DNA of 64,000 nt from Novosphingobium sp. Chol11 (GTDB lineage: Bacteria > Pseudomonadota > Alphaproteobacteria > Sphingomonadales > Sphingomonadaceae). Below are positions 38,184-52,676 of the stretch, in pieces; position 1 is the first letter of the stretch; every line of letters begins with the position of its first letter. A program made the position numbers and the translations under genes. The notes under the pieces are model-generated. The model was given only the letters and a program-made list of their open reading frames with translations. It was not told where the DNA came from and made no database searches. The DNA lies in contig NZ_OBMU01000005.1 of NCBI RefSeq assembly GCF_900218065.1, forward strand, positions 62,001 through 126,000, given 5' to 3'.

Positions 38184-38582
38184 CTATGCGGATCGGGCCG
38201 CGGCCAGTTCGGCGATGATCGGACAATCCGGCCGCTCGTCGCCTTGGCAGCGCTCAGCCAGGTCGATTAGCGTGTCGCGCAGCGCCGTCAACGCCTCGGC
38301 TTTGCGCTGAAACTCATCGGCGCGGGCAAGGGCAAGCCGCTTCACCTCCGCGCTGGCACGGCCGGTATTGGCCCAAAGGCTGAGCAACGTGCGGATCTCC
38401 TCGATCGGGAAGCCGAGATCGCGGGCATTGGCGATAAACCGGAGGCGATGGAGGTCGCGCTCGCCATAGTCACGATAGCCAGCACCCCGACGCGCCGGCG
38501 CCGGGATGAGGCCGATCTTTTCATAATGGCGGATCATCCGCTCAGAGACGCCGCTCTGCCGTGACGTCTCGCCGATGTTCAC
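38184..38582 (-). CDS. cueR: CueR-like MerR-family copper regulator
   Basis: A 132-aa MerR-family activator: winged helix [20 protein letters not shown], a dimerisation helix, and a C-terminal metal loop [12 protein letters not shown]. The two-Cys spacing matches the Cu(I)/Ag(I)-sensing CueR loop (C-G-D-x4-D-C-P). The gene follows the Cu-ATPase gene with an ATGA overlap, so regulator and pump share a transcript. Its likely operator is the dyad in the ATPase promoter at 40,972-40,986. Confidence 0.87.
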
Positions 38583-40936
38583 AGTGCTTTCCGGTTGAGG
38601 CGCAGCGCGTTGGTGACCACGCTCACCGAAGAGAGCGCCATCGCCGCCGCCGCGATAATGGGCGAGAGCAGAATACCGAACAGCGGATAGAGCGCACCCG
38701 CCGCTACGGGCACGCCCGCGACATTGTAGATGAAGGCGAAGACGAGATTCTGGCGGATGTTCGACATGGTCGCTTGGCTGAGCCGCCGCGCCCGGACGAT
38801 GCCAGTCAGGTCGCCCTTGAGCAGCGTGACGCCAGCGCTCTCGATCGCGACGTCGGTGCCGGAACCCATGGCGATGCCGACGTCGGCGGCGGCCAACGCG
38901 GGGGCGTCGTTGACACCGTCGCCGGCCATGGCGACGACCCGCCCCTCGCGCTTGAACCTGGCGACCACGGCGCTCTTCTGATCGGGCAGCACCTCGGCTT
39001 CGACCTCGTCGATGCCCAGGCGTCGGGCGACCGCTTCCGCGGTCGTGCGGTTGTCGCCGGTCAGCATGACCACGCGAATGCCCTCCGCCTTGAGCGCGGC
39101 GAGCGCTTCTGGTGTCGTGGCCTTCACCGGATCGGCGATCGCGAAGGCGCCGCCGACTGTGCCGTCGACCCCGATGAAGATCGCGGTGGCGCCATCCCGG
39201 CGCAGCGCGTCGGCCTGGCTGGCGAGCGCATCGGTCGCAACCCCTTCGTCGGCAAGGAACTGCGCATTGCCGAGGACGATGCGCCGCCCTTCGACCGTGC
39301 CGAGCGCGCCGCGCCCGGTCGGCGAGTCGAAGTCGATGACGTCGCTCGTGACGATGCCGCGATCCTTCGCGGCCTCGACGATTGCCAACGCGAGCGGATG
39401 CTCGGACGCCCGCTCGACCGAGGCGGCAAGACGCAGCAGCTCGGCTTCGTCGAAGCCGGGCGCCGGCACGACCTGGGTGACGGCAGGCCGGCCTTCGGTC
39501 AGCGTGCCTGTCTTGTCGACGACGAGAGTGTCGACCTTCTCCATATGCTCGAGTGCTTCGGCATTTTTGATGAGGACACCGAGCCCGGCGCCGCGGCCGA
39601 CCCCGACCATGATCGACATCGGCGTTGCCAGCCCCAGTGCGCAGGGACAGGCGATGATCAGCACGGCGACCGCCGCCACCAGCCCATAGGCGAAGCGCGG
39701 CTCGGGACCCCAGATGCCCCAGGCGATGAACGCGACGGCCGCGACCGCGATGACCACGGGCACAAACCAGCCCGACACCTGATCGGCCATGCGCTGGATC
39801 GGCGCGCGCGAGCGCTGCGCCTCAGCGACCATCTGGACGATGCGTGCGAGCATGGTATCGCGGCCGACCTTGTCGGCGACGATCACCAGCGCACCGGTCT
39901 GGTTGAGCGTGCCGCCGATCACTGTGTCGGCCTTTGCCTTGGTGACGGGCATGGATTCGCCGGTGACCATCGACTCGTCGAGCGAGGAGCGGCCGTCCTC
40001 GACTACGCCGTCGACCGGCACCTTCTCGCCCGGCCGCACCCGCAGGCGGTCGCCCACCGCAACCAGATCAAGGCTGATTTCCTCTTCGTTCCCATCAGAA
40101 CCGATCCGGCGCGCGGTCTTTGGTGCAAGGTTGAGCAGCGCCTTGATCGCGCCCGAGGTGCGTTCCCGCGCGCGCAGTTCGAGCATCTGGCCGAGCAGCA
40201 CGAGGACGGTGATCACCGCGGCCGCCTCGAAATAGACGGCAACCATGCCGTCCTCGCCGCGGAAGGCCGGCGGGAACAGCTGAGGCGCGAGCGTCGCGAT
40301 GACGCTGTAGATCCAGGCGACCCCGGTCCCCATCGCGATCAGGGTGAACATGTTGAAGTTGCGGGTCTTGAGCGAGGCCCAGCCACGCTCGAAGAACGGC
40401 CAGCCCGCCCACAGCACGACGGGTGTCGCCAGCACGAACTGGATCCATACCGAGATAGACATCGGCACGAGGCGATGGATCGCGGGAAAGACATGCGCGC
40501 CCATCTCGAGGATCAGCACCGGGAGAGCCAGCACGAGGCCGACCCAGAAGCGCCGCGTGAAATCGACTAGCTCGTGGCTGGGGCCGCTGTCGGCGGTCAC
40601 GGTCGCGGGTTCGAGCGCCATGCCGCAGATCGGACAGGACCCGGGATGGTCCTGGCGGATCTCGGGATGCATCGGGCAGGTCCAGATCGTGCCTTCGGGC
40701 GCCGCGACCGGCGGCGTCGGCGGGCCGAGATAGCGCTCGGGATCGGCGATGAATTTGGTCCGGCAGCCCGCGCTGCAGAAATGATAGCTTTCACCGCTAT
40801 GCTCGGCGTGATGCGCCGTGGTCGCCGGGTCGACGGTCATGCCGCAGACCGGGTCCTTGACGCCGGTCGCCGCTTTAGCGGTGCCGTGGCCGCCGCAGCA
40901 ACCGCCGCCATGCGCCGCTCCATGTGTCTCGTTCAT
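38579..40936 (-). CDS. copA: Copper-exporting P1B-type ATPase
   Basis: A 785-aa Cu(I) pump. The N-terminus is unusual: GGGCCGGHG, a YHS-type segment ([11 protein letters not shown] to [12 protein letters not shown]), and a heavy-metal-binding segment [20 protein letters not shown], instead of classical CxxC HMA domains. Core motifs are CPC in [24 protein letters not shown], the SEHPLA His-Pro motif and [11 protein letters not shown]. The ATG at 40936 has AAGGAG 8 nt upstream. The longer frame reads promoter and pseudogene DNA. It exports cytosolic copper for the periplasmic oxidases to handle. Confidence 0.93.
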
Positions 40937-40961
40937 CGCCTCGCTCCTTTCGACGCCTGAC

Positions 40962-40992
40962 GATCTAGGGTCTGACACCGTGTCAGGGTCAA
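40962..40992 (-). promoter_or_regulatory. MerR/CueR-type promoter of the Cu-ATPase operon
   Basis: On the minus strand, TTGACC (40987-40992) and TAGATC (40962-40967) are 19 nt apart, the lengthened spacer diagnostic of MerR-regulated promoters. A perfect 15-bp dyad, CTGACAC-C-GTGTCAG at 40972-40986, fills the spacer. CAATACGTAA (40990-40999) overlaps the -35 and recurs before two other metal genes. Regulation by the CueR-like protein encoded downstream is inferred. Confidence 0.72.
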
Positions 40993-41039
40993 TACGTAAT
41001 CGCCTAAGTGGCCAAATCGGCGGGCCCGTTCGCTTGGCC

Positions 41040-41294
41040 GCCATCAGGCCGGGGAGCACGCCGTCGGCATTGGGCTGGGTATCGTCGATGCCATCGAGCC
41101 GCTGCACGGTCAGGCGGAAGGCGAGCCGCATGAGACCCGTGCTGGCGGCCATAATCGGCGATTACCAGGCGCCAATCCGGGCGCAGCATGGCAAGCATGG
41201 CGGCACGCCACCGCTTCTCCCGCGCCCACAGGCGGATCGCGCGATCATAGTCTTTCGTCGATCCAGTCCCGCGCGGCGGGGTGTACGATTGCAT
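41040..41294 (-). pseudogene. Class I SAM methyltransferase remnant with internal deletion and frameshift
   Basis: The N-terminus (DYDRAIRLWAREKRWRAAML) is that of a common metal-island methyltransferase. The SAM-binding GCGTG region and everything up to the late strand are missing, because the frame jumps from LRPDWR directly to [12 protein letters not shown] shift to the next frame then continues the family C-terminus: [20 protein letters not shown] then [12 protein letters not shown], after which similarity ends. It lies between copD and the Cu-ATPase. Confidence 0.6.
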
Positions 41295-41330: not shown

Positions 41331-42275
41331 CTACATCGACATGGGTGGCGACAGTGTCCCCAGCCAGGCGACCAGCCCGAGAATGACGATCGCAAGACCG
41401 CCTTCGACGACGAGGCTCGCGCGCAGCAGCGCCTGCGCCCGTGGCGCGTCCTCTTCCTCGATCGCCTGCGCAAGTGCCGGGGTCAGGCGATAACGGTTGA
41501 GCGCGGCCAGGCCCAGCATGCCGGCGAAGAGCAGCAGCTTGGCGATGAGCAGCAGGCCGTAGGTCGACTGCCCGAGAGACGCGATGTTGCCCGGGCCGAC
41601 CAGGAACCAGCCGTTCACCGTCCCGGTCAGGATCAGCAGGGCGACGATGATCGTGCCGACGAAGGAGAAGCCCCGCAGCGCTTCCTCGGCGAGCATGACC
41701 CGGTCCATGTCTTCAGTGGCGAGATCATCGGTTGCGAGCCTGGTAAGAACCAGCGCAAGGAATGCGGCAAGCGCGCCGACCCAGGCGCCCGCGGCGAGCA
41801 GATGGATGAGATCGGCCCCCAGTTGCAGCCAGCCCGCCTCGCCTTCGCCGGCCGCGCCATGCCCGCTCCAGGCGAGGGTCGCGAGTGCGACCGCGCCTGC
41901 CAGAGTGGAGGCGATGAAGGCAGGACGGGATTGCCGGCGATAGAAGGGGATGGAGAGCAGAAGAACGAGGAGCGCGACGAGGCGCGCCTTCAGCGCCGTT
42001 CCCATGGACGTGCCGTTGAACAGCTCTGCGACCATGGAAAGATCAGGCTGGGTGAGCGGCAGCCCGGTCATGGCCGCTGCCTGCAACGCGAACCCCAGCG
42101 CCGACAGCAGGAGGGCGAGACAGGCGAGACCGGCCACCATTGCTACCATCGGCAGATGCCGCTGTACCATCCGGCCGCCGCCGGGCGCATAGAGCGCGAA
42201 CAGCGGCAGGCCGAACAACAGGCCGAGATCGACGTAGAGCGCCCAGCGGACGGCGACGAGTGCCACGTCGTTCAT
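41331..42275 (-). CDS. copD: Copper resistance membrane protein CopD
   Basis: A 314-aa protein with about eight membrane helices and conserved CopD positions: RWALYVDLGLLFGLPLFALY at the start, SGHGAAGEGEAG with HLLAAGAWVGALAAF in the middle, and FVGTIIVALLILTGTVNGW plus YGLLLIAKLLLFAGMLGLAA later. CopD works with periplasmic CopC in copper uptake across the inner membrane. It starts 4 nt after the copC stop, so copC and copD form an operon. Confidence 0.9.
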   Translation of the reverse strand: MNDVALVAVRWALYVDLGLLFGLPLFALYAPGGGRMVQRHLPMVAMVAGLACLALLLSALGFALQAAAMTGLPLTQPDLSMVAELFNGTSMGTALKARLVALLVLLLSIPFYRRQSRPAFIASTLAGAVALATLAWSGHGAAGEGEAGWLQLGADLIHLLAAGAWVGALAAFLALVLTRLATDDLATEDMDRVMLAEEALRGFSFVGTIIVALLILTGTVNGWFLVGPGNIASLGQSTYGLLLIAKLLLFAGMLGLAALNRYRLTPALAQAIEEEDAPRAQALLRASLVVEGGLAIVILGLVAWLGTLSPPMSM

Positions 42276-42279
42276 GGCG

Positions 42280-42657
42280 TCACTTGACGGTAAAGGCGAG
42301 ATTGCCCTGGATGCGGTGCGTGTCGGTCGAGACGACGTGCCAGGCGACCTGATAGCTGCCCGCCATGAGCGGCTTGGCGAGCGTCAGCACGAGCGTCTTG
42401 TCGCCTTCGACGGACGTCTTGAAGCCGGTTACCGCCATGCGGTGGTTGGGCATGCCGGGCATGCCGGTCATCACGATCTCGGCGCCCGACAGCTTCGGCA
42501 TCAGACCTTCACTGAAGGTGAGCGTTATACGCGACGGCGCCGAGACGCTGGCGTTCGCGGCGGGCGTCGAGGACACAAGCTTGGGATGCGCGTAGGCCGG
42601 AGCAGAAACACTCAGGCCGACGGCGGCGATAACTGCGAGAGGCGAAAAGAAACGCAT
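42280..42657 (-). CDS. copC: Periplasmic copper chaperone CopC
   Basis: A 125-aa exported protein. The signal peptide ends SAPAYA, leaving His as mature residue 1 (HPKLVSSTPA), a key Cu(II) ligand of CopC. A Met/His cluster (MTGMPGMPNHRM) and the second Cu(II) site (WHVVSTDTHR) follow in an immunoglobulin-like beta fold. It is divergent from cnrY. A promoter-like pair CCCCTC/AATACG lies 31-57 nt upstream, and an AGGAGAA ribosome-binding site precedes the ATG. Confidence 0.92.
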   Translation of the reverse strand: MRFFSPLAVIAAVGLSVSAPAYAHPKLVSSTPAANASVSAPSRITLTFSEGLMPKLSGAEIVMTGMPGMPNHRMAVTGFKTSVEGDKTLVLTLAKPLMAGSYQVAWHVVSTDTHRIQGNLAFTVK

Positions 42658-42687: not shown

Positions 42688-42714
42688 AATACGCAGCCCG
42701 AGCCCCCACCCCTC
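42688..42714 (-). promoter_or_regulatory. Candidate ECF-sigma promoter of copCD
   Basis: On the minus strand GAGGGG (42709-42714) and CGTATT (42688-42693) are separated by exactly 15 nt. The same pair at the same spacing occurs before the multicopper oxidase gene, and with small changes before cnrY and the DUF411 gene. The -10-like element ends about 30 nt before the copC ATG. Assignment to the CnrH-like sigma factor encoded 1 kb away is inferred. Confidence 0.5.
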
Positions 42715-42739
42715 GCAATTATTCTTTTCAATCTACAGC

Positions 42740-42766
42740 AAGGGTTCCTGGACCATCGTGCGTATT
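42740..42766 (+). promoter_or_regulatory. Candidate ECF-sigma promoter of cnrYXH
   Basis: AAGGGT (42740-42745), 15 nt, CGTATT (42761-42766): a close variant of the copC and copA pattern, ending 24 nt before the cnrY ATG. Autoregulation of an ECF sigma operon by its own product is the usual arrangement. This site and the copC site point away from each other across a small divergent region. Confidence 0.5.
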
Positions 42767-42790
42767 GATGGATGAAGACGGAGAAGCACC

Positions 42791-43063
42791 ATGGATGAAC
42801 TTGACCACCTGCTCTCGCGGTTGCGCGATGCGCCTCTCGATCCCAGGCTCGGCGGCCTGGAAAGCCGGGTCATGGCGGAAATAGCGCGCATCCGGGCCAT
42901 ACCAAGCCTTGGCGCTATGACGTTCGGCATCGCGGCCGCAACCGCGCTGTTCATCGGAATTGCCGGCTCGGCAGTTTCGACACGGTCTGCTGATGCCAAA
43001 CCGCTATCGCCCTTCGATGCTCGGCTCGCGCTTGCGCCCTCGACGCTGCTGAGCTCGCAGTGA
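42791..43063 (+). CDS. CnrY-like anti-sigma factor
   Basis: A 90-aa protein with a cytoplasmic N-terminus (MDELDHLLSRLRDAPLDPRL), a single membrane helix (about 45-63, FGIAAATALFIGIAGSAV) and a short periplasmic tail. It precedes a CnrX-like sensor and an ECF sigma gene in the exact cnrY-X-H order, which supports the role more than its divergent sequence does. The N-terminus would clamp the sigma factor until the sensor binds metal. A GGAGAAG ribosome-binding site lies 6 nt before the ATG. Confidence 0.75.
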   Translation: MDELDHLLSRLRDAPLDPRLGGLESRVMAEIARIRAIPSLGAMTFGIAAATALFIGIAGSAVSTRSADAKPLSPFDARLALAPSTLLSSQ

Positions 43064-43503
43064 TGCGCGACCGCCGCCGGCTCCTGCTCCTCGTCCTGGT
43101 GACCTTCGCCGCGGCGATCGCTGGCGTTGTCATTGGCCGCGTCTATGTGGTTCCAGTGCGCCCGGTCGAAAATGAGCTGCACGAGCTGCTCCATCGCGAT
43201 CTGAAGCTGAATTCAGCGCAACACAGCCGACTCGAGACAATCGAGAAGAACTACGCGATCCGGCGTCAAGCGCTGGAGGCCGAATTGCGCGCCGACAATG
43301 CGCGTCTCGCGGAAGCGATCGAAGCGGAGCATGGCTATGGCCCGCAAGTCGCAACTGCGGTGGATCGCTCGCACCAGGCCATGGGCGCGCTGCAGAAAGA
43401 AACACTTGAGCATATCTTCGCGATGCGGGCCGTGCTGCGCCCGGATCAGACGGACAAATTCGACGACGCCGTGGTGAAAGCGCTGACGGCCAAATCCGAA
43501 TGA
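43063..43503 (+). CDS. CnrX-like periplasmic metal sensor
   Basis: A 146-aa protein anchored by one N-terminal helix, followed by a four-helix periplasmic hooked-hairpin domain. H40, H44, E61, H117 and M121 reproduce, with a constant offset of two, the H42/H46/E63/H119/M123 ligands of Cupriavidus CnrX, including the axial Met. The sensor should therefore bind a transition metal in a CnrX-like site. Start is ATG at 43063 (TGATG with the cnrY stop) or the GTG three bases earlier. The metal sensed here (Ni, Co or Cu) cannot be told. Confidence 0.82.
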   Translation: MRDRRRLLLLVLVTFAAAIAGVVIGRVYVVPVRPVENELHELLHRDLKLNSAQHSRLETIEKNYAIRRQALEAELRADNARLAEAIEAEHGYGPQVATAVDRSHQAMGALQKETLEHIFAMRAVLRPDQTDKFDDAVVKALTAKSE

Positions 43504-44066
43504 CCGCGTGCCTCCCCGACTGCTCGGACGGGGAGCTCGCGGCTCTGGCGCTTGGAGGCCGGCAAGCGGCCTATGGCGAGCTGGTCCGCCGGCATCAAGG
43601 TTGGGTTCACCGGCTCGTGCGCAGCCATGTCGGATCTATGGATGAGGCATTGGATGTCACCCAGGCGAGCTTCGTCGCGGCCTTTGCCGCACTCAACCGC
43701 TATGACGTAACCCGACCCTTCCAGGTCTGGATGTCCCGGATTGTCATCAACAAATGCCATGACTGGCGGCGTCGGCGAGCGGTTCGAAATTTCTTTGCCC
43801 TAGCCCTACCGCTCGGCGAGGCGGACGGCGTCGCCGACGACGCACCGCTGCCCGATCAGGCGATCGGGGCCGAACAGCAGCTCGCGCAAGCAATGAAAGC
43901 GATTGCTGCCCTGCCGTCTTCCCTCAAGGACACGCTTATTTTGCGTACGATCGACGAGAAATCGGAAGCTGAAACCGCCGAAATTCTCGGGATCAGCCAG
44001 AAGGCGGTCGAAACGCGCCTCTATCGAGCTAGGGCACGCCTTTCGGAAATATTAAAGAAAGTTTGA
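43500..44066 (+). CDS. ECF sigma factor, CnrH-like
   Basis: A 188-aa two-domain sigma factor. Region 2 (ELVRRHQGWVHRLVRSHVGS, DEALDVTQASFVAAF, RPFQVWMSRIVINKCHDWRR) would melt and bind the -10. Region 4 (LPSSLKDTLILRTIDEKSEA, ETAEILGISQKAVETRLYRA) would bind the -35. It overlaps cnrX by 4 nt. Once CnrY lets go it should transcribe targets sharing a common promoter. The repeated [GA]AGGG[GT]-N15-CGTAT element is the best local candidate. Confidence 0.87.
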   Translation: MTACLPDCSDGELAALALGGRQAAYGELVRRHQGWVHRLVRSHVGSMDEALDVTQASFVAAFAALNRYDVTRPFQVWMSRIVINKCHDWRRRRAVRNFFALALPLGEADGVADDAPLPDQAIGAEQQLAQAMKAIAALPSSLKDTLILRTIDEKSEAETAEILGISQKAVETRLYRARARLSEILKKV

Positions 44067-44091
44067 GGGGGATGAGGCCATGCTGCGTATT
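44065..44091 (+). promoter_or_regulatory. Candidate ECF-sigma promoter of copAB
   Basis: GAGGGG (44065-44070), 15 nt, CGTATT (44086-44091), identical in both hexamers and spacing to the copC site. It begins at the stop codon of the sigma gene and ends 41 nt before the multicopper oxidase ATG. This lets copAB be transcribed apart from cnrYXH. Confidence 0.5.
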
Positions 44092-44132
44092 CCCAATAGG
44101 TACGCCCTCTTTCTTAAAGCTGAGACAACCGA

Positions 44133-46058
44133 ATGATTTCTGCTCTCGACCGCCGCCAGTTCCTCCGCGGCGCGGCCCTCGCCGGCGGCGGCGCAGCATT
44201 GTCAGCCTGGCTGCCGGCCTGGGCGCAGACGATCTCGCCGGGGATGCGACCGACGCTGCCGACCGTGTCGGGCGAAGACATTACGCTCACCATCGCCCGG
44301 CAGTCGATGACCATCGACGGGCGCAAGTTCCGGGCAATCGGCCTCAACGGCACGGTCCCCGCCCCGCTGATCCGGCTGCGCGAGGGCCAGCGCGTGCGGC
44401 TCAACGTCATCAATCAGCTGGAGGAGGACAGCTCGATCCACTGGCACGGGCTGATCCTGCCGGCCAATATGGACGGTGTGCCGGGCGTGTCTTTTCCGGG
44501 CATCAAGCCGGGCTCGAACTACCTCTACCAGTTCTCCGTCGTGCAAAGCGGCACCTACTGGTACCACAGCCATTCAGGCCTGCAGGAACAGGAAGGCCAT
44601 TACGGCCCGATCATCATCGATCCCGCCGGTGCCGATCCGGTCGCCTATGACCGCGAGCATGTCATCGTGCTCGCCGATCACAGCGCGCTCTCGCCGCAGG
44701 CGATCTTCCGGCGCCTCAAGGTCAACCCCGGCCATTTCAATTTCCAGCGCCAGACCCTGGCCGGGCTCCTGTCGGGCAAGGATCAGCCGCTCAAGGACCG
44801 GCTCGACTGGGGCCAGATGCGGATGGACCCGGCCGACATCTCCGATGTGACCGGATCCACCTACACCTATCTCGTCAACGGCCATGGTCCGATGGACAAC
44901 TGGACCGCGCTCTTCACCCCGGGCGAACGGGTGCGGCTGCGGGTCATCAATGCGTCGGCGATGACCACCTTCAACGTCCGCATCCCCGGCCTGCCGCTGA
45001 CCATCGTCCAGGCCGACGGGCAGAATGTGGTGCCGGTCACCGTCGACGAGTTCCAGGTTGGTGTTGCCGAGACCTACGACGTCGTTGTCAGCCCAGGCGA
45101 TGACAAGGCCTACACCCTTGTCGGCGAGGCGATCGACCGCTCGGGCATGGCGCGTGCCACGCTCGCGCCGCGCGCCGGCATGGCCGGCGAGGTTCCCCCC
45201 TTACGCAAACGGCCGCTCGCCGACATGAAGGACATGGGCATGGACATGTCCTCGATGCCGGGCATGGAAGGCATGGACATGTCGGGCGGCGCTATGCGGG
45301 GCGTCGATCCGACGGCCGAGAAGAACGCGTCCGCGCGCCTCGCGACCGGCGCGGCGGCAGCGATGGCGACCATGGACAATAGCGCCATGGCAGGCATGGA
45401 TCATTCGGGGATGGATCATTCCGCGATGAGCGGGATGGACCACGGCGCGATGGGCGCCGATGGCCAGATGGCGGGCATGGACCATGGCGGGCACGCGATG
45501 GGGTCGATGAAGATGCGAGACTTCTCGAACGCGCCGCAGGTGAAGCGCGACCCGAGCGTCCAGACCATCTCGCCGATGCCCGTCGACCGCACCGGCGAGC
45601 CCGGCCAGGGCCTCGCCGACGTCGGCCACAAGGTGCTTGTCTACAGGGACCTGATGGCGCTCGATCGCAATCCGGACGTGCGCGCGCCGAGCCGCAGCAT
45701 CGACATTCACCTCACCGGCAACATGGAGCGGTTCATGTGGTCGTTCGACGGCGAAAAAATGTCGGACCATCACGAGCCGATCCCCTTCATCGAAGGCGAG
45801 CGGGTGCGCGTCAATCTCATCAACGACACGATGATGGGGCATCCGATCCATATTCACGGGCATTTTTTCGAGCTGGTGACGGGGCATGGCGATCATGCGC
45901 CACGCAAGCATACGGTAATCGTCCAGCCCGGCGGCAAGGTGACCTGGGACTTCACCGCCGACGCGGTCGGCGACTGGGCCTTCCACTGTCATCTCCTCTA
46001 CCACATGCATGCCGGGATGATGCGGGTCGTGAGCGTCCGTCCGAAGGGAGACGCGTAA
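44133..46058 (+). CDS. copA: Multicopper oxidase CopA/PcoA (first copy)
   Basis: A 641-aa periplasmic copper oxidase with a Tat signal (DRRQFLRGAALAGGGAALSA). The cupredoxin copper motifs are SIHWHG, TYWYHSH, GHPIHIHGHF and HCHLLYHMHAGMM, which supply type 1, 2 and 3 copper ligands. A Met/His-rich insert (about 355-445, with repeated MDHSGMDHSAM-type units) is typical of the PcoA/CopA group and may bind Cu(I). It would oxidise Cu(I) in the periplasm. Its stop overlaps the copB start by one base. Not to be confused with the CopA-type ATPase at 38.6 kb. Confidence 0.94.
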   Translation: MISALDRRQFLRGAALAGGGAALSAWLPAWAQTISPGMRPTLPTVSGEDITLTIARQSMTIDGRKFRAIGLNGTVPAPLIRLREGQRVRLNVINQLEEDSSIHWHGLILPANMDGVPGVSFPGIKPGSNYLYQFSVVQSGTYWYHSHSGLQEQEGHYGPIIIDPAGADPVAYDREHVIVLADHSALSPQAIFRRLKVNPGHFNFQRQTLAGLLSGKDQPLKDRLDWGQMRMDPADISDVTGSTYTYLVNGHGPMDNWTALFTPGERVRLRVINASAMTTFNVRIPGLPLTIVQADGQNVVPVTVDEFQVGVAETYDVVVSPGDDKAYTLVGEAIDRSGMARATLAPRAGMAGEVPPLRKRPLADMKDMGMDMSSMPGMEGMDMSGGAMRGVDPTAEKNASARLATGAAAAMATMDNSAMAGMDHSGMDHSAMSGMDHGAMGADGQMAGMDHGGHAMGSMKMRDFSNAPQVKRDPSVQTISPMPVDRTGEPGQGLADVGHKVLVYRDLMALDRNPDVRAPSRSIDIHLTGNMERFMWSFDGEKMSDHHEPIPFIEGERVRVNLINDTMMGHPIHIHGHFFELVTGHGDHAPRKHTVIVQPGGKVTWDFTADAVGDWAFHCHLLYHMHAGMMRVVSVRPKGDA

Positions 46059-47206
46059 TGACCCGCATCCTCACGCCGCTGGTGAGCGCGATCGCCCTTT
46101 TCGCTGCCGCGCCCGCCTTTGCCCAGGATCATTCAATGCACGGCATGCCCGGCATGGCGCCGCCGGGCGAGGTGCCGCCGGCGCAGGAGAAGAAGAAGGA
46201 CAAGGCCGCCGCCAGGCCGCGCGCTCAGACACCAGCGCCAGACGCCACCTCGGCGATGGACCATTCGCAGCACCAGGCCAGTCCTGCGCCGCAGGGAGAT
46301 GCGGCCGGTCAGCCGCAACCCGCGTCTCCCGCGATGCCGGACATGCCGGGCATGGACCACTCCCAGCATCAGGACGGCGCGATGCCGGACATGCCCGGGA
46401 TGGACCATTCGCAGCATGGCCAGACCGCCATGCCCGGCATGCAAATGACCGGCACGGCGCTTCCGGCCGGCAATGCGCCCCCGCCGCCTCCCCCCAGCGA
46501 CCACTTCGCCGATCGTGATTTTCCCGGCGCCGAGATGGCGCGCTCACGCGACATCATGATGAAGGACAGCGGCGGCAACAATTTCGGGCAGGTGCTGCTC
46601 AACCTGTTCGAGTATCAAGCGCATAGCGGTCGCGATGGCTATCGCTGGGATGGCGAAGGCTTTTACGGCGGCGATATCAACCGGCTCTGGCTCAAGAGCG
46701 AGGGCGAAGGCGAGTTCGGCCGCGGCATCGACAGCGCGGAGGTGCAGGTGCTCTATAGCCGGGCCATCGACCCCTATTTCAATCTTCAGGGCGGTATCCG
46801 CCAGGACTTCGGCCGCGGGCCCGACCGCACTTACGCGACGGTCGGCGTCGAGGGCCTGGCTCCCGGCATGTTCGAAGTCGAAGGCGCGCTGTTCCTCTCG
46901 ACCAAGGGCGATGTTCTGGGCCGGGTCGAGGGCTATTACGACCAGCGCATTACCCAGCGCCTGATCTTGCAGCCGCGCGCCGAGGTCAATTTCGCCGCGC
47001 AGGATATTCCGGAGAACGACATCGGTTCGGGGCTGGTCAACATAGAGCTCGGCGCGCGCCTGCGCTATGAGTTCAGCCGCCAGTTCGCACCCTATATCGG
47101 CGTCTCTTATCTGCGCAAAGCCGGCGACACGGCGCGGCTGTCGAGGCTTGCCGGCGAGGACGTCCATGCCACCAGCTTCGTCGCCGGCATCCGCTTCTGG
47201 TTCTAG
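46058..47206 (+). CDS. copB: Outer-membrane copper resistance protein CopB (first copy)
   Basis: A 382-aa protein: signal peptide (ending AAPAFAQ), a Met/His-rich periplasmic segment (MHGMPGMAPPG, MDHSQHQ repeats, about residues 20-145), then a CopB beta-barrel domain (FADRDFPGAEMARSRDIMM through FAPYIGVSYLRKAGDTARL and a C-terminal aromatic WF). The ATG at 46058 shares its A with the copA stop (TAATG) and follows an AGGGAG ribosome-binding site. It presumably sequesters or exports copper with CopA. Confidence 0.92.
   Translation: MTRILTPLVSAIALFAAAPAFAQDHSMHGMPGMAPPGEVPPAQEKKKDKAAARPRAQTPAPDATSAMDHSQHQASPAPQGDAAGQPQPASPAMPDMPGMDHSQHQDGAMPDMPGMDHSQHGQTAMPGMQMTGTALPAGNAPPPPPPSDHFADRDFPGAEMARSRDIMMKDSGGNNFGQVLLNLFEYQAHSGRDGYRWDGEGFYGGDINRLWLKSEGEGEFGRGIDSAEVQVLYSRAIDPYFNLQGGIRQDFGRGPDRTYATVGVEGLAPGMFEVEGALFLSTKGDVLGRVEGYYDQRITQRLILQPRAEVNFAAQDIPENDIGSGLVNIELGARLRYEFSRQFAPYIGVSYLRKAGDTARLSRLAGEDVHATSFVAGIRFWF
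46334..46429 (+). repeat. Two 48-bp tandem repeats in copB
   Basis: Two in-frame 16-codon units (46334-46381 and 46382-46429) each encode MPDMPGMDHSQH plus four variable residues. They differ at a few positions. They expand the Met/His metal-binding region, and such units vary in copy number among CopB proteins. Confidence 0.75.
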
Positions 47207-47296
47207 CATCGGGACGGCTGATGGCGGGGGCGAACAGGAGAGCGGGGCGTTACACTGAGACCCAGGTCGGCCTGCGCCGAACGAAGGAGATACGCC

Positions 47297-47770
47297 ATGG
47301 ATCATTCGTCCCACATGAGCACACGGAAGATGGGCGCCTATTGGAGCCTGGCCTTCCAGACCGTCATCAGCGGCGTCATCATGTATCTGGTGATGTTCGT
47401 CATGATCGACGGGCTCGACAGCTTCTACAACAACCTCAACATGCTCTACATGACGCTGATGATGGTCTCACCGATGGTGGTGCTCATGATCCTCGCCATG
47501 CGGCACATGTTCCCGTCGAAGGCCGCCAACATCGCGCTGATCGCCGCGTCGCTGGTCGCCTTCTTGGGCAGCTTCGCGTTCATCCGCACGCAGACCACGA
47601 TCGGCGACACGGCCTTTCTGCGCTCGATGATCCCACACCACTCCGGCGCGATCCTGATGTGCCAGGAAGCAAAGCTGAGCGATCCCGAAGTCATCCGGCT
47701 TTGCGAATCGATCAAGCGCTCGCAGCGGCAGGAAATCGACGAGATGAAGGCCATACTCGCGCGGCGCTGA
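47297..47770 (+). CDS. DUF305 membrane-anchored protein
   Basis: A 157-aa protein with about three membrane helices (FQTVISGVIMYLVMFVMID, MLYMTLMMVSPMVVLMILAM, ANIALIAASLVAFLGSFAFI) and a periplasmic DUF305 segment: FLRSMIPHHSGAILMCQEAK and LCESIKRSQRQEIDEMKAIL. The HHSGA and SQ..EI motifs are typical, and the family often accompanies copper and silver resistance. AAGGAG lies 8 nt upstream. Function unproven; metal binding via the paired His is plausible. Confidence 0.82.
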   Translation: MDHSSHMSTRKMGAYWSLAFQTVISGVIMYLVMFVMIDGLDSFYNNLNMLYMTLMMVSPMVVLMILAMRHMFPSKAANIALIAASLVAFLGSFAFIRTQTTIGDTAFLRSMIPHHSGAILMCQEAKLSDPEVIRLCESIKRSQRQEIDEMKAILARR

Positions 47771-47828
47771 GTGGCACGGTCCGGCTACGCCCGGATACGT
47801 GCGCCCGGCCGGGCGTGTGAGCCGGCCG

Positions 47829-49364
47829 ATGGTCTACACGAGGCGCGGGCCCGACGAGATTGCCAGGGAGGTGGCGCGGCTTGCGCCGCTGTTCCTGCGA
47901 CAGGCTGGCGGCCACGTCCTGACGCTGCTCGATCCTTCCGGGATGGTGCTGAGCTATAATGAAGAAGGCGAGCGTGCCGAATGCTGGCCGCTCGATCGCG
48001 TCCTGGGACAGCCCCACGACCTGTTCTACCCGCCCGACGAGATTGCGGCGGGGCGTCCAGGCGCAGACCTGGCGGCCGCCCTTCACGAGGGCACGCTGGA
48101 GCGCGAAGCGTGGCGGGTCTGCGAGAACGGCGCGGAATATCTGGCGCGCCTGACGATCACCGCACTGTTCGAAGGCGACACACATCGCGGCTTCGCCTGC
48201 ATCAGCCGCGATGTCACCGACGAGGCGGCGGTCCGCGCATCGATCGAGACCCGCGAGCAGCATCTGCAATCGATTCTGGCGACGGTGCCGGATGCGATGA
48301 TCATCATCGACGAGACCGGCGCCATCACGTCGTTCAGCGCAGCGGCACAACGCCTGTTCGGCTACAGCGAAGCCGAGCTCGTCGGCCGCAACGTCTCCTG
48401 CCTTATGCCCCAGCCCGATCGCGACCGTCACGACGAATATCTCGCGCATTATCTGCAGACCGGCGAGCGCCGGATCATCGGCCTCGGTCGCGTCGTGGTC
48501 GGCCAGCGCCGCGACGGCTCAACCTTCCCGATGCAGCTGTCGGTCGGCGAGGCCGGTGAAGACGGGCAGCGGTTGTTCACCGGCTTTATCCGGGATCTCA
48601 CCGCCAAGGAGCAGGATGAGCTCAGGCTCAAGGAACTGCAGGCAGAGCTGGTCCATGTCTCTCGGCTGAGCGCGATGGGCACGATGGCCTCGACGCTCGC
48701 GCATGAGCTCAACCAGCCGCTTGCCGCGGTCGCGCTCTATCTCGAGACGATCCGCGACATGCTCGACGAGCGGGACGACGAACCCTTCGTGTCGCTACGG
48801 TCGGTGATGGATGATGCGGCACAGGAAACGCTGCGGGCCGGCCATATCGTCCGGCGCCTGCGCGATTTCGTCGCCCGCGGCGAGGTCGACAAGAGCCTCC
48901 ACGAGCTGCCGCAGGTCATCGCCGAGGCGAGCCAGCTCGCGCTGGTCGGTGCACGCGAGCGCGGCATCCGCAGCTTCTTTGCGGTCGATCCCGCCGCGAC
49001 GCTGGTCCTCGTCGACAGGGTGCAGATCCAGCAGGTGCTGGTCAACCTGATGCGCAATGCCATCGAGGCGATGGCGGAGTGTCCGGTTCGCGACCTCAAG
49101 GTGGCGACCAGGTTGCGCCCTGACGGGCTGATCGAGGTGACCGTGGAGGATACCGGTCCCGGCATCGCGGACGGAATCCGCGAGCAGCTCTTCACGGCGT
49201 TCAACTCGACAAAGGCCGACGGCATGGGCCTCGGCCTCTCGATCTGCCGGACCATCATCGAAGCGCATGGCGGCCGTATCTGGATGGAGCGCCCCGACCG
49301 CGGCGGCACCCGCTTTCATTTTACCTTGATCCATGCGCGGGCGGAGGAGGAACATGGGGGATAG
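47829..49364 (+). CDS. fixL: FixL-like heme-PAS oxygen-sensing histidine kinase
   Basis: A 511-aa kinase with an N-terminal PAS-like domain (about 20-135) and a second PAS (about 145-260) with the FixL heme signature RDRHDEYLAHYLQTGERRII then GLGRVVVG. The proximal His (201) and the distal-side Arg (221) are 20 residues apart, as in rhizobial FixL (H194/R214, H200/R220). A kinase core follows (phospho-His in LAHELNQPLAA, N-box NLMRNAIEAM, GLGLSICRTIIEAHGG). ATG 47829 is preferred; a GTG at 47799 is possible. It overlaps fixJ by 11 nt. Confidence 0.88.
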   Translation: MVYTRRGPDEIAREVARLAPLFLRQAGGHVLTLLDPSGMVLSYNEEGERAECWPLDRVLGQPHDLFYPPDEIAAGRPGADLAAALHEGTLEREAWRVCENGAEYLARLTITALFEGDTHRGFACISRDVTDEAAVRASIETREQHLQSILATVPDAMIIIDETGAITSFSAAAQRLFGYSEAELVGRNVSCLMPQPDRDRHDEYLAHYLQTGERRIIGLGRVVVGQRRDGSTFPMQLSVGEAGEDGQRLFTGFIRDLTAKEQDELRLKELQAELVHVSRLSAMGTMASTLAHELNQPLAAVALYLETIRDMLDERDDEPFVSLRSVMDDAAQETLRAGHIVRRLRDFVARGEVDKSLHELPQVIAEASQLALVGARERGIRSFFAVDPAATLVLVDRVQIQQVLVNLMRNAIEAMAECPVRDLKVATRLRPDGLIEVTVEDTGPGIADGIREQLFTAFNSTKADGMGLGLSICRTIIEAHGGRIWMERPDRGGTRFHFTLIHARAEEEHGG

Positions 49365-49977
49365 ACGCGTCATCCATCTGGTCGACGACGAGGAGAGCAT
49401 CCGCAAGGCGGCGAGCTTTGCGCTCAAGACCGCGGGCTACGACGTCGTGACCTATGCCTCGGGCGTGGAGTTTCTCAAGGAGGCGAAGTCGGCGGCCGTC
49501 GGCTGCGTCATCCTTGACGTGCGCATGCCCGAGATGGACGGTCTCGAGGTTCAGGCCGCCATGGCAGCACGCGGGGTCAACATGCCGGTCATCGTCCTGA
49601 CCGGCCATGGCGACGTGTCGGTTGCGGTGCAGGCCATGAAAGGCGGCGCGGTCGACTTTCTCGAGAAGCCCTTCGAGAAAGCGGCCCTGCTCGGCGCCGT
49701 CAGCCGCGCGTTCGCGCGTCTCGACGATGTCGACTTTCGCACTCTGGAAACCTCTGAAGCCGGCGTGCGGGTCGCTGCACTGACGCCCCGGGAGCGTGAA
49801 GTGCTGGAAGGGCTGGCGAACGGCCTGCCCAATAAGACGATCGCCTATGACCTGGGCTGTTCATCGCGAACGGTCGAGGTCCATCGCGCGAGCCTGATGG
49901 CCAAGCTCGAGGTCCGCAATTTGTCCGAAGCCCTGCGGATCGCCTTTGCCGCGGGCATGGGCCGCAAGCCGAAGTGA
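49354..49977 (+). CDS. fixJ: FixJ-type response regulator
   Basis: A 207-aa regulator: receiver domain (VDDEES, phospho-Asp in CVILDVRMPEMDG, Lys in FLEKPFEKAA) and LuxR-type helix-turn-helix (LTPREREVLEGLANGLPNKT, SRTVEVHRASLMAKL). It is the cognate partner of the upstream kinase, starting inside its last codons with a GGAGG ribosome-binding site. It is a close paralog of the orphan regulator at 37.5 kb. Both may read TGCGTATT- or TACGTA-like sites near the copper promoters; this is inference. Confidence 0.9.
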   Translation: MGDRRVIHLVDDEESIRKAASFALKTAGYDVVTYASGVEFLKEAKSAAVGCVILDVRMPEMDGLEVQAAMAARGVNMPVIVLTGHGDVSVAVQAMKGGAVDFLEKPFEKAALLGAVSRAFARLDDVDFRTLETSEAGVRVAALTPREREVLEGLANGLPNKTIAYDLGCSSRTVEVHRASLMAKLEVRNLSEALRIAFAAGMGRKPK

Positions 49978-50013
49978 CTGCGACCTCTACGTAGCGACGG
50001 GACGAGGCGCGAT

Positions 50014-50466
50014 ATGCGATCGATGGTGCAATCGTCACACGGGTGTCCGCTTCTCGCAATGCCATCGGTCCGTTCCACTCAGCATGATGGCAGATACACC
50101 ATCCTCGTCTCCGACGACGATCCCGGCGTGCGGCGTGGCCTCCAGCTGCTGCTGAGATCGCGCGGCTATGCCGTGTGGGGATATACGACCGGCCACGCGC
50201 TGTTGGCCGACCCCCGCGCGAAGGAGGCAGACTGCGTCATCCTCGACTATCGCATGCCCGACATCGACGGATTCGCGATGCTGCGTCACCTTCGCGAGAT
50301 CGGATGGTCGGGACGCGCCATCATGATCTCAGGCTTTCACGACACGCTGCTGGCCTGGCGGGCCGCCGAGGCGGGCTTCGATCACGTTCTCGCAAAGCCT
50401 TTGATCGGCAGGGCTTTGCTCGATGCGTTGGACCGGCACCGCGCCGAGGTTCTGCGAAAGCATTGA
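50014..50466 (+). CDS. Stand-alone receiver-domain response regulator
   Basis: A 150-aa single-domain receiver (SDDDPGVRRGLQLLL, phospho-Asp in CVILDYRMPDIDGFAML, Lys in VLAKPLIGRALL) without an output domain. Such FixJ-like receivers act as phosphate sinks or relays. It lies 36 nt after fixJ on the same strand, so it probably modulates FixLJ. The ATG at 50014 lacks a clear ribosome-binding site, and the native start may be as late as 50086 (MMADTP-like region is in another frame), so the N-terminus is uncertain. Confidence 0.75.
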   Translation: MRSMVQSSHGCPLLAMPSVRSTQHDGRYTILVSDDDPGVRRGLQLLLRSRGYAVWGYTTGHALLADPRAKEADCVILDYRMPDIDGFAMLRHLREIGWSGRAIMISGFHDTLLAWRAAEAGFDHVLAKPLIGRALLDALDRHRAEVLRKH

Positions 50467-50528
50467 GTTATGGCGGCCGGCCCCCGGCAGCCTCAGCCCG
50501 GCGCGATGTGGAAAGCCGATCTGCGCCG

Positions 50529-50924
50529 TCAAAGCCAGTGGCTACGTTTGAACCGGATGTAGAGCCCAATGCAGACCGCAGCGATGACGCCGAGGATGAC
50601 GAAATATCCCCATTGCGTCTTCAGTTCGGGCATATTCTCGAAATTCATGCCGTAGATTCCGGCAATCGCGGTAGGCACCGCGAGGATCGCGGCCCAGGCG
50701 GCAAGCTGACGCGTGATCGCACCCTGGCGCTGCTGTTCGAGCAGGTGACTCGCCTCGAACACCGAGATCAGGATGTCGCGGATGCCGGTGATGGCGCTCT
50801 CAACCCTGAGCATGTGATCGAGCAAATCACGGAAATAGGGTTTCCTTCTCACGATCTGGCTTTTGAGCCATTCGAGCATGGAATCTTTTGCCATCATGGG
50901 CGTCGTCGTCGCTCTCGGCAGCAT
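50529..50924 (-). pseudogene. corA: CorA magnesium transporter, 5'-truncated
   Basis: Only the C-terminal third of CorA is present: the end of the long stalk helix (KPYFRDLLDHMLRVESAITG, ISVFEASHLLEQQRQGAITR) and both membrane helices with the YGMNFENMPEL selectivity motif, ending FKRSHWL. CorA is normally about 320 aa, and only some 125 codons of it remain here. Similarity stops near 50,880, after which the DNA changes character, so the 5' end was lost at a rearrangement. Confidence 0.75.
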
Positions 50925-51244
50925 CGTCTACCGGGCCAGCATCCGCCGGTCATCAACGTAGGGGTCACGACGGTGGAGCGAGCGGTCGGCTCTTCAAGCC
51001 CAACGCGATCGGCTCATTTCTCGCTCACCAGTCGTGAACTAACGGCAAATTTGTCAGAATTTGAGGGTGAAAGTGATTTATGGCCCTCATTTTTGTTTCA
51101 AGCAGCGCCTGCCGAATGCATCTCTGCGATTGATGTCTTCTGCAAAAGCTTGTTGGCATCGGATGCTCGCTGATCACACCTAACCCGTAATCGTGCCTCT
51201 GGCTGACATACCCGACAAACGTATAAGCTCGCCATGCGCGGGCG
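50925..51244. other. Gene-poor junction DNA
   Basis: These 320 nt lie between truncated corA and the toxin gene. The middle is A/T-richer than the flanks. TGAGGG and CCCTCA arms near 51,062-51,089, followed by TTTTTGTTT, could form a weak hairpin terminator on the plus strand. I see no convincing gene. The open frames look random. Probably a rearrangement scar. Confidence 0.4.
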
Positions 51245-51526
51245 TCACCAACCCAATTCCGCGTGCGATCCCAAGCGCACAAGCTGCAAGGTGTCGTCAT
51301 CGGGCTTGCGGTAAATCAGCACGAGGTCGGGCTTTATGTGGCAATCGCGATGGTCGCGCCAGTCGCCGGTCAGCGCATGGTCGCGGTGGCGCGGTTCAAG
51401 CGGCTCGTCGGATGCCAGCGCCTCGATGATCGGGATCAGGTCAGCGTCCAGCGTCTTGGCGTGCTGCCCCTTCTTCTCCCGCTTGTAGTCGCGCTTGAAC
51501 CGCCCGAAGCGTTCAATCGTCCGCAT
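51245..51526 (-). CDS. YafQ/RelE-family mRNA interferase toxin
   Basis: A 93-aa RelE-superfamily toxin of the YafQ group: RFKRDYKREKKGQHAKTLDA at the start, then ALTGDWRDHRDCHIKPDLVL and IYRKPDDDTLQLVRLGSHAE. The HRDCHIKPDLVLIY block and the final SHAELGW carry the His residues used in YafQ-type ribosome-dependent mRNA cleavage. Its start overlaps the antitoxin gene by 14 nt, the classical antitoxin-first arrangement. Confidence 0.9.
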   Translation of the reverse strand: MRTIERFGRFKRDYKREKKGQHAKTLDADLIPIIEALASDEPLEPRHRDHALTGDWRDHRDCHIKPDLVLIYRKPDDDTLQLVRLGSHAELGW

Positions 51527-51776
51527 TGAGGTCGGCCATCAGGTCGACCACCGTGGCGAACCGCTTGCCCTTTCCCTCGCGCGCTTCCTTCATGGCCTCG
51601 ATCGTCTCGGCATTGGGCACCAGCGGTTCAAACGGCAAGGCCTTGTCGCGGGCAACGCGGGTCAGCATCAGGCGCACGGCATCGGAGACGGTCAGCCCCA
51701 TAGCAGCCAGCACGGTCGCGGCTTCCTCCTTCACCGCTCCGTCGATCCGGGTCTGCACAAGAGCGTTTGCGGCCAT
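51513..51776 (-). CDS. RelB/DinJ-family antitoxin
   Basis: An 87-aa antitoxin with a ribbon-helix-helix N-terminus (NALVQTRIDGAVKEEAATVL, AMGLTVSDAVRLMLTRVA) and a C-terminal toxin-binding segment. It should neutralise the adjacent YafQ-like toxin and repress the operon. The ATG at 51776 has AAGGAAA about 6 nt upstream. A promoter (TTGCAC, 17 nt, TACATC on the minus strand) lies around 51,800-51,828, right at the integrase junction. Confidence 0.9.
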   Translation of the reverse strand: MAANALVQTRIDGAVKEEAATVLAAMGLTVSDAVRLMLTRVARDKALPFEPLVPNAETIEAMKEAREGKGKRFATVVDLMADLNADD

Positions 51777-51827
51777 GTCGATTTCCTTTCTGCATGACGA
51801 TGTAATGCAAGCGAACGCAAAGTGCAA

Positions 51828-51899
51828 TCAGGCAAAGCCCCGGCTATCGACATGGCGACCGGGCTTCGCGTTTTTCACCTTCAATGCTGTGAGTGCCAT
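51828..51899 (-). pseudogene. Tyrosine-type integrase stub (N-terminal 23 codons)
   Basis: The ATG at 51899 starts MALTALKVKNAKPGRHVDSR, the arm-binding (DUF4102) opening of P4-type tyrosine integrases, and then stops after GFA. The rest of the gene, about 380 codons, is absent, replaced by the RelBE-family module. Upstream (51,900-52,080) the minus strand carries TGTGGGAACGATTGTGGGAC, the sort of leader seen before such integrases. This marks an old element end. I found no tRNA gene or clear attachment core beside it, and nothing coding in 51,900-52,160. Confidence 0.6.
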
Positions 51900-52160
51900 C
51901 GGTTCGGGGCCCTGATCGGGAATGTTGGGGCCGTTCTCACACTTTCGGTGGGCAAACGGTCCCACAATCGTTCCCACATTTTGGGCCAAATTCAGGCAAA
52001 TCAGGGAGACGACCGCGAACAACTTACAAGACAAATCGTTGCTTTTTCAGTGTAGGTAGGGGTAGGGACGCCATCAGCTCGCTTGACACAAGGTTCTACA
52101 CTCGACAGCGGGGTCCTCTACCACCGGGCAATTCTGCAGGATGCTGCAAACCGCGCGATA

Positions 52161-52598
52161 TCAATGGCGGGCGAAAATTCGCTGACCGGCGCTGCCGAAG
52201 GCCACCACCGTATAGGGTTGGCGGGCAGCGCCTGCCACTTCCATGCCCTCCGAACCGATCGGCATCCCCGCAACCGCAATGCCTTTGACGCCCGCAGGAC
52301 GGGTCGCCAGCAAGCGCTTGACGTCGGATATCGGGACATGGCCCTCGATCATATAGCCATCGACGATCGCGCTGTGGCAAGATGCCAGCGTCCGGGGCAT
52401 GCCGGCCTTGCGCTGAAGCTCGCTGCGCGACGCATCGTCACGCATGACGACCTTGCGTCCCAGCTTCGCGCGCACGGCCTGCGCCCACTTCTCGCAACAT
52501 CCACATCCCGGATCCCGGTGGACGACGATATCACTGGCCGCAAGCGCTACGCCGGGCATGGCGAGGAACAGCAAGGCGACGAATAGGCGGGTCTTCAT
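52161..52598 (-). CDS. DUF411 periplasmic metal-binding protein
   Basis: A 145-aa exported protein: a signal peptide ending MPGVALAAS, the metal motif HRDPGCGCCEKWAQAVRAKL, then RTLASCHSAIVDGYMIEGHV and a C-terminal VAGAARQPYTVVAFG. DUF411 proteins recur in copper and silver islands and probably bind Cu(I) through the C-x-C-C cluster. It is the last gene before the integrase scar. A GAGGGG-N15-CGTATA pair lies 52-78 nt upstream. Confidence 0.88.
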   Translation of the reverse strand: MKTRLFVALLFLAMPGVALAASDIVVHRDPGCGCCEKWAQAVRAKLGRKVVMRDDASRSELQRKAGMPRTLASCHSAIVDGYMIEGHVPISDVKRLLATRPAGVKGIAVAGMPIGSEGMEVAGAARQPYTVVAFGSAGQRIFARH

Positions 52599-52649
52599 GA
52601 AATGACTCCCGGAAGAACGATAAGCATGGGGCAGAGGCCCCTTCTTTTC

Positions 52650-52676
52650 TATACGCATCAATGCGCCCCTCCCCTC
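52650..52676 (-). promoter_or_regulatory. Candidate ECF-sigma promoter of the DUF411 gene
   Basis: On the minus strand GAGGGG (52671-52676), 15 nt, CGTATA (52650-52655). The -35-like hexamer and the spacing are identical to the copC and copA sites 8-10 kb away, and the -10-like hexamer differs at one base. It overlaps only the gap after the MFS gene, so it would give the DUF411 gene its own promoter. Confidence 0.5.

Follow-up and report, generated by a model that had tools for sequence, protein, structure and literature searches.

Which regulator controls the copper genes carried by a 64,000-nucleotide (nt) stretch of DNA from Novosphingobium sp. Chol11 (assembly GCF_900218065.1, contig NZ_OBMU01000005.1, positions 62,001 to 126,000 of the forward strand; hereafter the window)? 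A bipartite element, RAGGGK-N15-CGTATW, in which 16 bases lie between RAGGG and CGTAT, stands there before several copper genes and a regulatory operon. We are nearly certain that its copies act as promoters for an extracytoplasmic function (ECF) sigma factor encoded at 43500–44066. The four elements are listed below. Counts of homologous sites refer to related loci, namely the best 80 of 482 found with a profile of 21 sigma proteins (1.51 Mb in total). The bit scores come from a matrix built from 106 non-redundant sites of diverged loci, from which the window's own sites were excluded.

42688..42714, minus strand: candidate promoter element of copC (and copD), GAGGGG-N15-CGTATT; exact match, 24.6 bits; homologous site in 73 of 80 related loci
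42740..42766, plus strand: candidate promoter element of the operon for anti-sigma, sensor and sigma (autoregulation), AAGGGT-N15-CGTATT; exact match, 14.1 bits; homologous site in 76 of 80 loci
44065..44091, plus strand: candidate promoter element of the multicopper oxidase-copB operon; exact match, 23.1 bits; homologous site in 76 of 80 loci
52650..52676, minus strand: candidate promoter element of the DUF411 gene, GAGGGG-N15-CGTATA; exact match, 23.7 bits

The original prediction had named these four elements, and its coordinates, strands and N15 spacing all proved exact when we re-scanned the window. Counting on the sequence also bore out the distance of 24–51 nt that it gave between element and start codon (copC 30, anti-sigma gene 24, oxidase gene 41, DUF411 gene 51 nt). 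The full pattern has exactly 4 matches in the window. All of them precede a copper gene or the regulatory operon and share its orientation; 0 of 100 dinucleotide shuffles of the window reached this number (mean 0.00). At the oxidase gene the −35 box GAGGGG overlaps the stop codon TGA of the sigma gene (44064–44066) by GA, and the DUF411 element starts one base behind the stop codon of an MFS gene. The matrix ranks the window's four sites 1st to 4th, the next score in the window being 11.5 bits.

A scan of the replicon and of related islands had been proposed together with the prediction, and we extended the search accordingly. Across the whole host genome (3,711,414 bases in 10 contigs) the pattern occurs 5 times, and 0 times when read backwards. 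The expectation that it would not be as frequent inside coding DNA as before metal genes was largely borne out: four matches precede copper or regulatory genes, and the fifth (C10:423122) lies antisense within an open reading frame (ORF) for a LytS-like histidine kinase. Looser matching was no better than its controls: a single mismatch in RAGGG-N15-GCGTAT gave 94 matches in the genome (reversed control 93), and two mismatches in the full pattern gave 8 in the window, where 11.9 were expected. Neither is an excess, and both counts were therefore dropped as uninformative. A spacer one base longer gave 7 off-spacing matches, 0 of them at the four sites, against 17 in reversed controls. Three further exact matches of a shorter pattern (L050–L052) were rejected as promoters; they coincide in part with the first start codon of an ORF or sit inside one.

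The related loci comprise 28 near copies (sigma at least 88% identical) and 52 diverged loci (sigma 53–71% identical). Within them GAGGG-N15-GCGTA was found 222 times, at least once in 80/80 loci, while each spacer of 8–14 or 16–23 bases gave 0–9 matches. The sites before the anti-sigma, copC and oxidase genes, which we call the core sites, occur together in 69/80 loci (26/28 near, 43/52 diverged). When 15–17 bases were allowed between RAGGG and CGTA, 224 of 225 core sites had 16. Removing redundancy from the 143 sites in diverged loci leaves 106, whose boxes are partly fixed by the search itself. At positions that the search left free, the base before GAGGG is T or C in 106/106, the base before CGTA is G in 105/106 and position 6 is T in 76/106; the spacer sequence is near random.

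Copying could be suspected, given that many plasmids carry the island in identical or almost identical form, and the four elements would then be recent copies of one promoter cassette that carry no functional information. This is extremely improbable: spacers and flanks differ among the four sites, and the two boxes, unlike the spacer, are preserved across the 106 non-redundant sites.

Conservation reaches further. Of 15 deeper loci (sigma 34–51% identical), 14 keep site, sigma and copper genes; the remaining one, L166, keeps sites and sigma and has no other reference match. The system is mainly one of the window's family, since in a sample of the class the sensor occurs in only 5 of 289 genomes: that of the window, another of its family and three that belong to other families. 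In those last three the site is retained along with sigma and copper genes (3/3).

The distribution of the motif was then compared with that of the sigma gene in 298 genomes of the family, of which 121 (about 40%) have a sigma match at E≤1e-25 and count as sigma-positive. With GAGGG-N14-Y-GCGTAW as the site pattern and its reversal as control, the 121 genomes hold 448 sites (3.70 per genome; control 0.74) and the 177 sigma-negative genomes 103 (0.58 per genome; control 0.72). CopB is found in 234/298 genomes, namely in 120/121 with sigma and 114/177 without. These 114 genomes, with CopB and without sigma, show no excess of sites (0.68 per genome; control 0.74), and the motif thus tracks the sigma gene, not the copper genes. 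The shuffles, the reversed genome control, the spacer counts and this co-occurrence together rule out a chance origin of the elements. Some genomes (G036, G144, G196, G114, G057 and others) carry two or three sigma homologues.

The genes behind the elements, and the regulatory operon that is flanked by the divergent copC/anti-sigma promoters on one side and by the oxidase promoter on the other, are the following.

42791..43063, plus strand: putative anti-sigma factor, 90 aa; assigned from position, a hydrophobic segment at residues 40–58 and predicted helices
43060..43503, plus strand: CnrX-type periplasmic metal sensor; Pfam Metal_resist (6.8e-25), PDB matches NccX/CnrX, predicted model resembling CnrX
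43500..44066, plus strand: ECF sigma factor, homologue of CnrH; Pfam Sigma70_r2 and r4_2, best PDB match CnrH (4cxf, 3.9e-32)
42280..42657, minus strand: copC; Pfam CopC (4.3e-21)
41331..42275, minus strand: copD, presumed to be on the copC transcript; Pfam CopD (3.3e-26)
44133..46058, plus strand: multicopper oxidase of CopA/PcoA type; Pfam Cu-oxidase_3, Cu-oxidase_2 and Cu-oxidase
46055..47206, plus strand: copB, overlapping the oxidase gene; Pfam CopB (8.4e-88)
52161..52598, minus strand: DUF411 gene; Pfam DUF411 (3.3e-24), a family also named CopG

The prediction had placed an ECF sigma factor with anti-sigma and sensor amid the elements. Pfam and PDB matches establish the sigma factor and the sensor, and the anti-sigma factor is putative. 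The sigma protein is 41% identical to CnrH, and its next PDB match, SigW (6.3e-17), is far behind. In a tree of the sigma proteins two outgroups sit on very long branches, and CnrH may have arisen either within the copper-linked sigmas or next to them. The 90-residue protein contains a single hydrophobic segment, and its AlphaFold2 (AF2) model, of moderate confidence (mean pLDDT 75.6, pTM 0.29), has helices at residues 2–13, 23–36 and 42–61. The predicted architecture is therefore two short helices followed by one membrane helix. According to PMC7406223, two CnrY helices wrap CnrH. Position and predicted architecture mark the window protein as a putative anti-sigma factor, and to that extent the name cnrY used in the original prediction is apt; a sequence match to CnrY/NccY, which the name also implies, was not obtained. 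No Pfam or NCBIfam family matches the protein, and it is either of another family than CnrY or diverged beyond recognition. Its C-terminus, presumably periplasmic, carries a conserved ALAPSTLL-like motif that is absent from the two CnrY sequences compared; this motif may contact the sensor.

We infer a switch of the following kind. RNA polymerase with the ECF sigma factor bound would recognise the four elements as promoters. That factor would be held inactive at the membrane by the small one-pass anti-sigma protein linked to the CnrX-type periplasmic sensor, until a periplasmic metal, most likely copper, binds the sensor and the sigma factor is released. Transcription would then start about 8 nt past CGTAT, at copCD, at the switch's own operon, at oxidase-copB and at DUF411. 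As a whole, this explanation is in our view highly probable. The local ECF sigma regulon that had been proposed thus appears well founded, as judged from conservation, fixed spacing, co-occurrence with sigma and a match to published CnrH promoters.

Other regulators are encoded close by and might instead read the element:

37522–38157, 49333–49977 and 50014–50466: response regulators, in or beside the island
47799–49364: kinase, in or beside the island
38184–38582: CueR-like MerR protein, in or beside the island

In the 28 near loci, the first two response regulators, the kinase and CueR indeed often have relatives (25, 25, 23 and 26 loci). In the 52 diverged loci the numbers drop to 9, 10, 8 and 21, yet the sites persist. 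The element is also bipartite and non-palindromic, points in the direction of its gene from a promoter-like distance, and resembles CnrH promoters already published. We therefore rejected a response regulator or CueR as its reader, relatives of these being less common in the diverged loci, where the sites stay, and consider a site for any such island regulator, the kinase included, very unlikely.

Which metal would set the sigma switch in motion is a question for the sensor. Its closest solved structures are NccX and CnrX, NccX (PDB 4clv) being the best PDB sequence match; it is 36% identical to CnrX. Its AF2 model (mean pLDDT 87.0) finds CnrX 2y3h as first match and has TM scores of 0.68/0.88 to 2y3d. 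The metal ligands of CnrX are H42, H46, E63, H119 and M123. Sensors were found in 104 of 106 loci (none from L153 and L166), two of them being Cupriavidus nickel sensors, and the five ligand positions are kept in 102/102 aligned sensors of the fetched loci. Among 103 sensors, window included, in a set picked via sigma and mostly from copper loci, H105 and M108 are invariant. The corresponding residues are E and A in three nickel sensors, namely CnrX, its USMAA2-4 relative and NccX. Altogether Q54, H105, M108, K113, Q130 and F134 are invariant in the 103, where CnrX has E, E, A, R, H and Y. The three sensors from other families keep H105 and M108; H41 is replaced by D in two of them and M122 by I in one of these two. 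We put forward the hypothesis, drawn from this alignment, that H105 and M108 bind copper.

The sigma factor could also read these promoters while the inducer is nickel, cobalt or envelope stress. This reading shares the promoter step with our preferred explanation, so that the confidence placed in the two overlaps. It is compatible with the sensor's retention of all five CnrX ligand positions and with a CnrX crystal entry titled apo- and copper-bound, which indicates that metal binding by the CnrX scaffold is not narrow in vitro. Against it speak the presence of CopB in nearly every sigma-positive genome and in far fewer sigma-negative ones, the mostly copper-related targets in annotated plasmids, and the invariant H105-x2-M108, absent from the three nickel sensors. 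We regard a non-copper inducer as unlikely, and copper as the probable natural signal of the switch.

Several observations weigh against a copper-responsive sigma regulon as proposed. The NCBIfam model CnrY_NccY_antiS detects CnrY of pMOL28 but not the window's 90-residue protein, and hhalign of that protein against CnrY returned a probability of 1.1, so that homology is not detectable. The five ligand positions of the sensor are those of nickel sensors and do not settle the metal. The element before the anti-sigma gene is the weakest of the four at 14.1 bits, and 1 of 5 mononucleotide shuffles reached 17.0; the support for this site is accordingly its conserved position, not its score alone. 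At least one core site is missing in 11/80 loci (L092, L101, L109, L112, L123, L125, L126, L136, L139, L144 and L153), of which 9 belong to the diverged group of 52. L112 lacks all three core sites, and contig ends truncate L101 and L153. No site precedes the anti-sigma gene in the Caulobacterales loci L171 and L172 or in L177. In 12 annotated plasmid loci (L043, L044, L170–L179), 7 of 54 matches to the loose pattern RAGGG-N15 to N18-CGTA are not followed by a listed gene start within 300 nt. Finally, a second copper operon of the window, MCO2-copB2-MFS (56716–52678, minus strand; MCO2 being a second multicopper oxidase gene), has no element of its own. This last point agrees with the co-occurrence data in that the motif is not tied to copper genes. 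It also divides the claim that the regulon joins both copper islands of the window: the DUF411 gene is reached, and the MCO2-copB2-MFS operon is without an element.

The original prediction had also set the DUF411 gene beyond an integrase scar. A remnant at 51829–52052, with a 70.7% match to a gene annotated as a site-specific integrase on one Porphyrobacter plasmid, makes such a scar plausible, and no Pfam integrase domain was found in the one ORF tested there (51893–52288, plus strand). A CorA fragment and a YafQ/RelB pair adjoin the remnant.

The remaining 47 of the 54 loose matches in the annotated plasmids lie within 300 nt before a listed gene start. Outside the core, the genes behind these sites include those for DUF305, DUF411, a P-type ATPase, cytochrome c, a four-helix copper protein, DUF4396, copper-binding proteins, a TonB receptor and a few others. 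In the 80 related loci, RAGGG-N15-GCGTA has 266 matches, for each of which the downstream ORF was picked mechanically: oxidase 74, copC 69, anti-sigma 59, DUF411 10, P-ATPase 4, DUF305 1, sensor or sigma 8 and other 41. Ten of the 41 are TonB-receptor-like by a short protein motif, two being confirmed by Pfam.

Genes of this TonB-receptor-like kind, with the element about 84–129 nt upstream, were seen at L106:17607, L107:19225, L112:15826, L137:16464, L140:14284 and L176:13391, which suggests outer-membrane receptors under copper control. The P-type ATPase gene carries the element in mostly Sphingopyxis loci (L131:7582, L150:6236, L151:6236, L152:6236 and L176:5240). The window's own P-type ATPase gene (38579–41152), which adjoins the cueR-like gene, has no element.

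In 15 plasmid records the DUF411 promoter region is identical at 113/113 positions. At least five of them (NZ_CP023451, NZ_CP018225, NZ_CP060037, NZ_AP018666 and NZ_CP020539) have their only sigma match at a distance of over 30 kb from that promoter, and action in trans on it is therefore likely.

Taken further, these data let us lean slightly towards a broader picture, in which an ECF switch dedicated to periplasmic copper and built on the CnrX scaffold governs CopABCD-type resistance in about 40% of the sampled family genomes. The sensor would have been retuned from nickel to copper by the invariant His105-x2-Met108, and the regulon would be growing in trans as mutually unrelated genes for DUF411, DUF305, P-type ATPase, TonB receptors and cytochrome c acquire GAGGG-N16-CGTAT. 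In the available portions of PMC10141476 and PMC12153292, copper genes of this set are assigned elsewhere to two-component and MerR-type regulators. A promoter, a sigma factor, a putative anti-sigma factor and a sensor can now be named for the copper islands of many sphingomonad plasmids and genomes, which makes the regulator testable. The contrast with the nickel sensors offers two residues for probing the metal choice of a CnrX-fold sensor.

How does the system compare with those already described? By homology and promoter, its nearest known counterpart, as far as sequences tell, is CnrYXH of Cupriavidus metallidurans pMOL28, which responds to nickel and cobalt. Both share the gene order anti-sigma, sensor, sigma, and in both RAGGG...CGTAT stands upstream of the anti-sigma gene as well as of the first target gene that follows sigma. 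On pMOL28 we found AAGGG-N17-CGTAT upstream of cnrY and GAGGG-N17-CGTAT upstream of cnrC, and both spacers are N17 in a second Cupriavidus plasmid as well. The CnrH promoter starts given in PMC9045368, 53286 and 54660, both fall 8 nt past CGTAT when counted on the pMOL28 record; this experimental anchor belongs to the homologue CnrH, not to the window's sigma factor. The two systems differ in the 16 bases that separate RAGGG from CGTAT here against 17 in CnrYXH, and in an anti-sigma factor that is unrecognisable by sequence and ends in its conserved ALAPSTLL-like motif. They also differ in the divergent copC promoter, in H105/M108 of the sensor, and in the targets, which here are copC, the regulatory operon, oxidase-copB and DUF411 and not the CnrCBA RND pump. 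NccX of the NccYXH system is named a nickel-cobalt-cadmium resistance protein and likewise has E and A where the window's sensor has H105 and M108.

Two copper-linked ECF sigma factors offer further comparisons. SigAb-AabA-AabB of Acinetobacter baumannii, described as Acinetobacter-specific in PMC12153292, is a copper-stimulated, autoregulated ECF sigma system. Its AabA is a small membrane anti-sigma factor of 107 aa, whose predicted binding resembles CnrY-CnrH, and its second partner is periplasmic. By that description it resembles the window system in its link to copper, autoregulation, small membrane anti-sigma factor and second periplasmic partner. It differs in gene order (sigma-aabA-aabB, against anti-sigma, sensor, sigma here), in its boxes (GTCAAC and CGTT, against GAGGG and CGTAT) and in a direct regulon of three targets, the copper genes being reached indirectly. 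CorE of Myxococcus xanthus, according to PMC10141476, is a copper ECF sigma factor over copper genes including a multicopper oxidase gene; a cysteine-rich C-terminal extension of the protein itself controls it, a CxC lies between sigma2 and sigma4, and it works without an anti-sigma factor. The window's sigma factor ends in ARLSEILKKV, has no cysteine in linker or tail and is preceded by a putative anti-sigma factor and a sensor, and we rejected a CorE-type assignment.

PMC10141476 also places CopABCD/PcoABCD under CopRS/PcoRS two-component control. The structural genes copA, copB, copC and copD are common to these systems and the window, where control is very probably exerted by an ECF switch. 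A copper CnrYXH was not found in searches of the open-access literature, in which most papers were judged from their listing. The window very probably encodes a known type of nickel switch in a copper-linked form.

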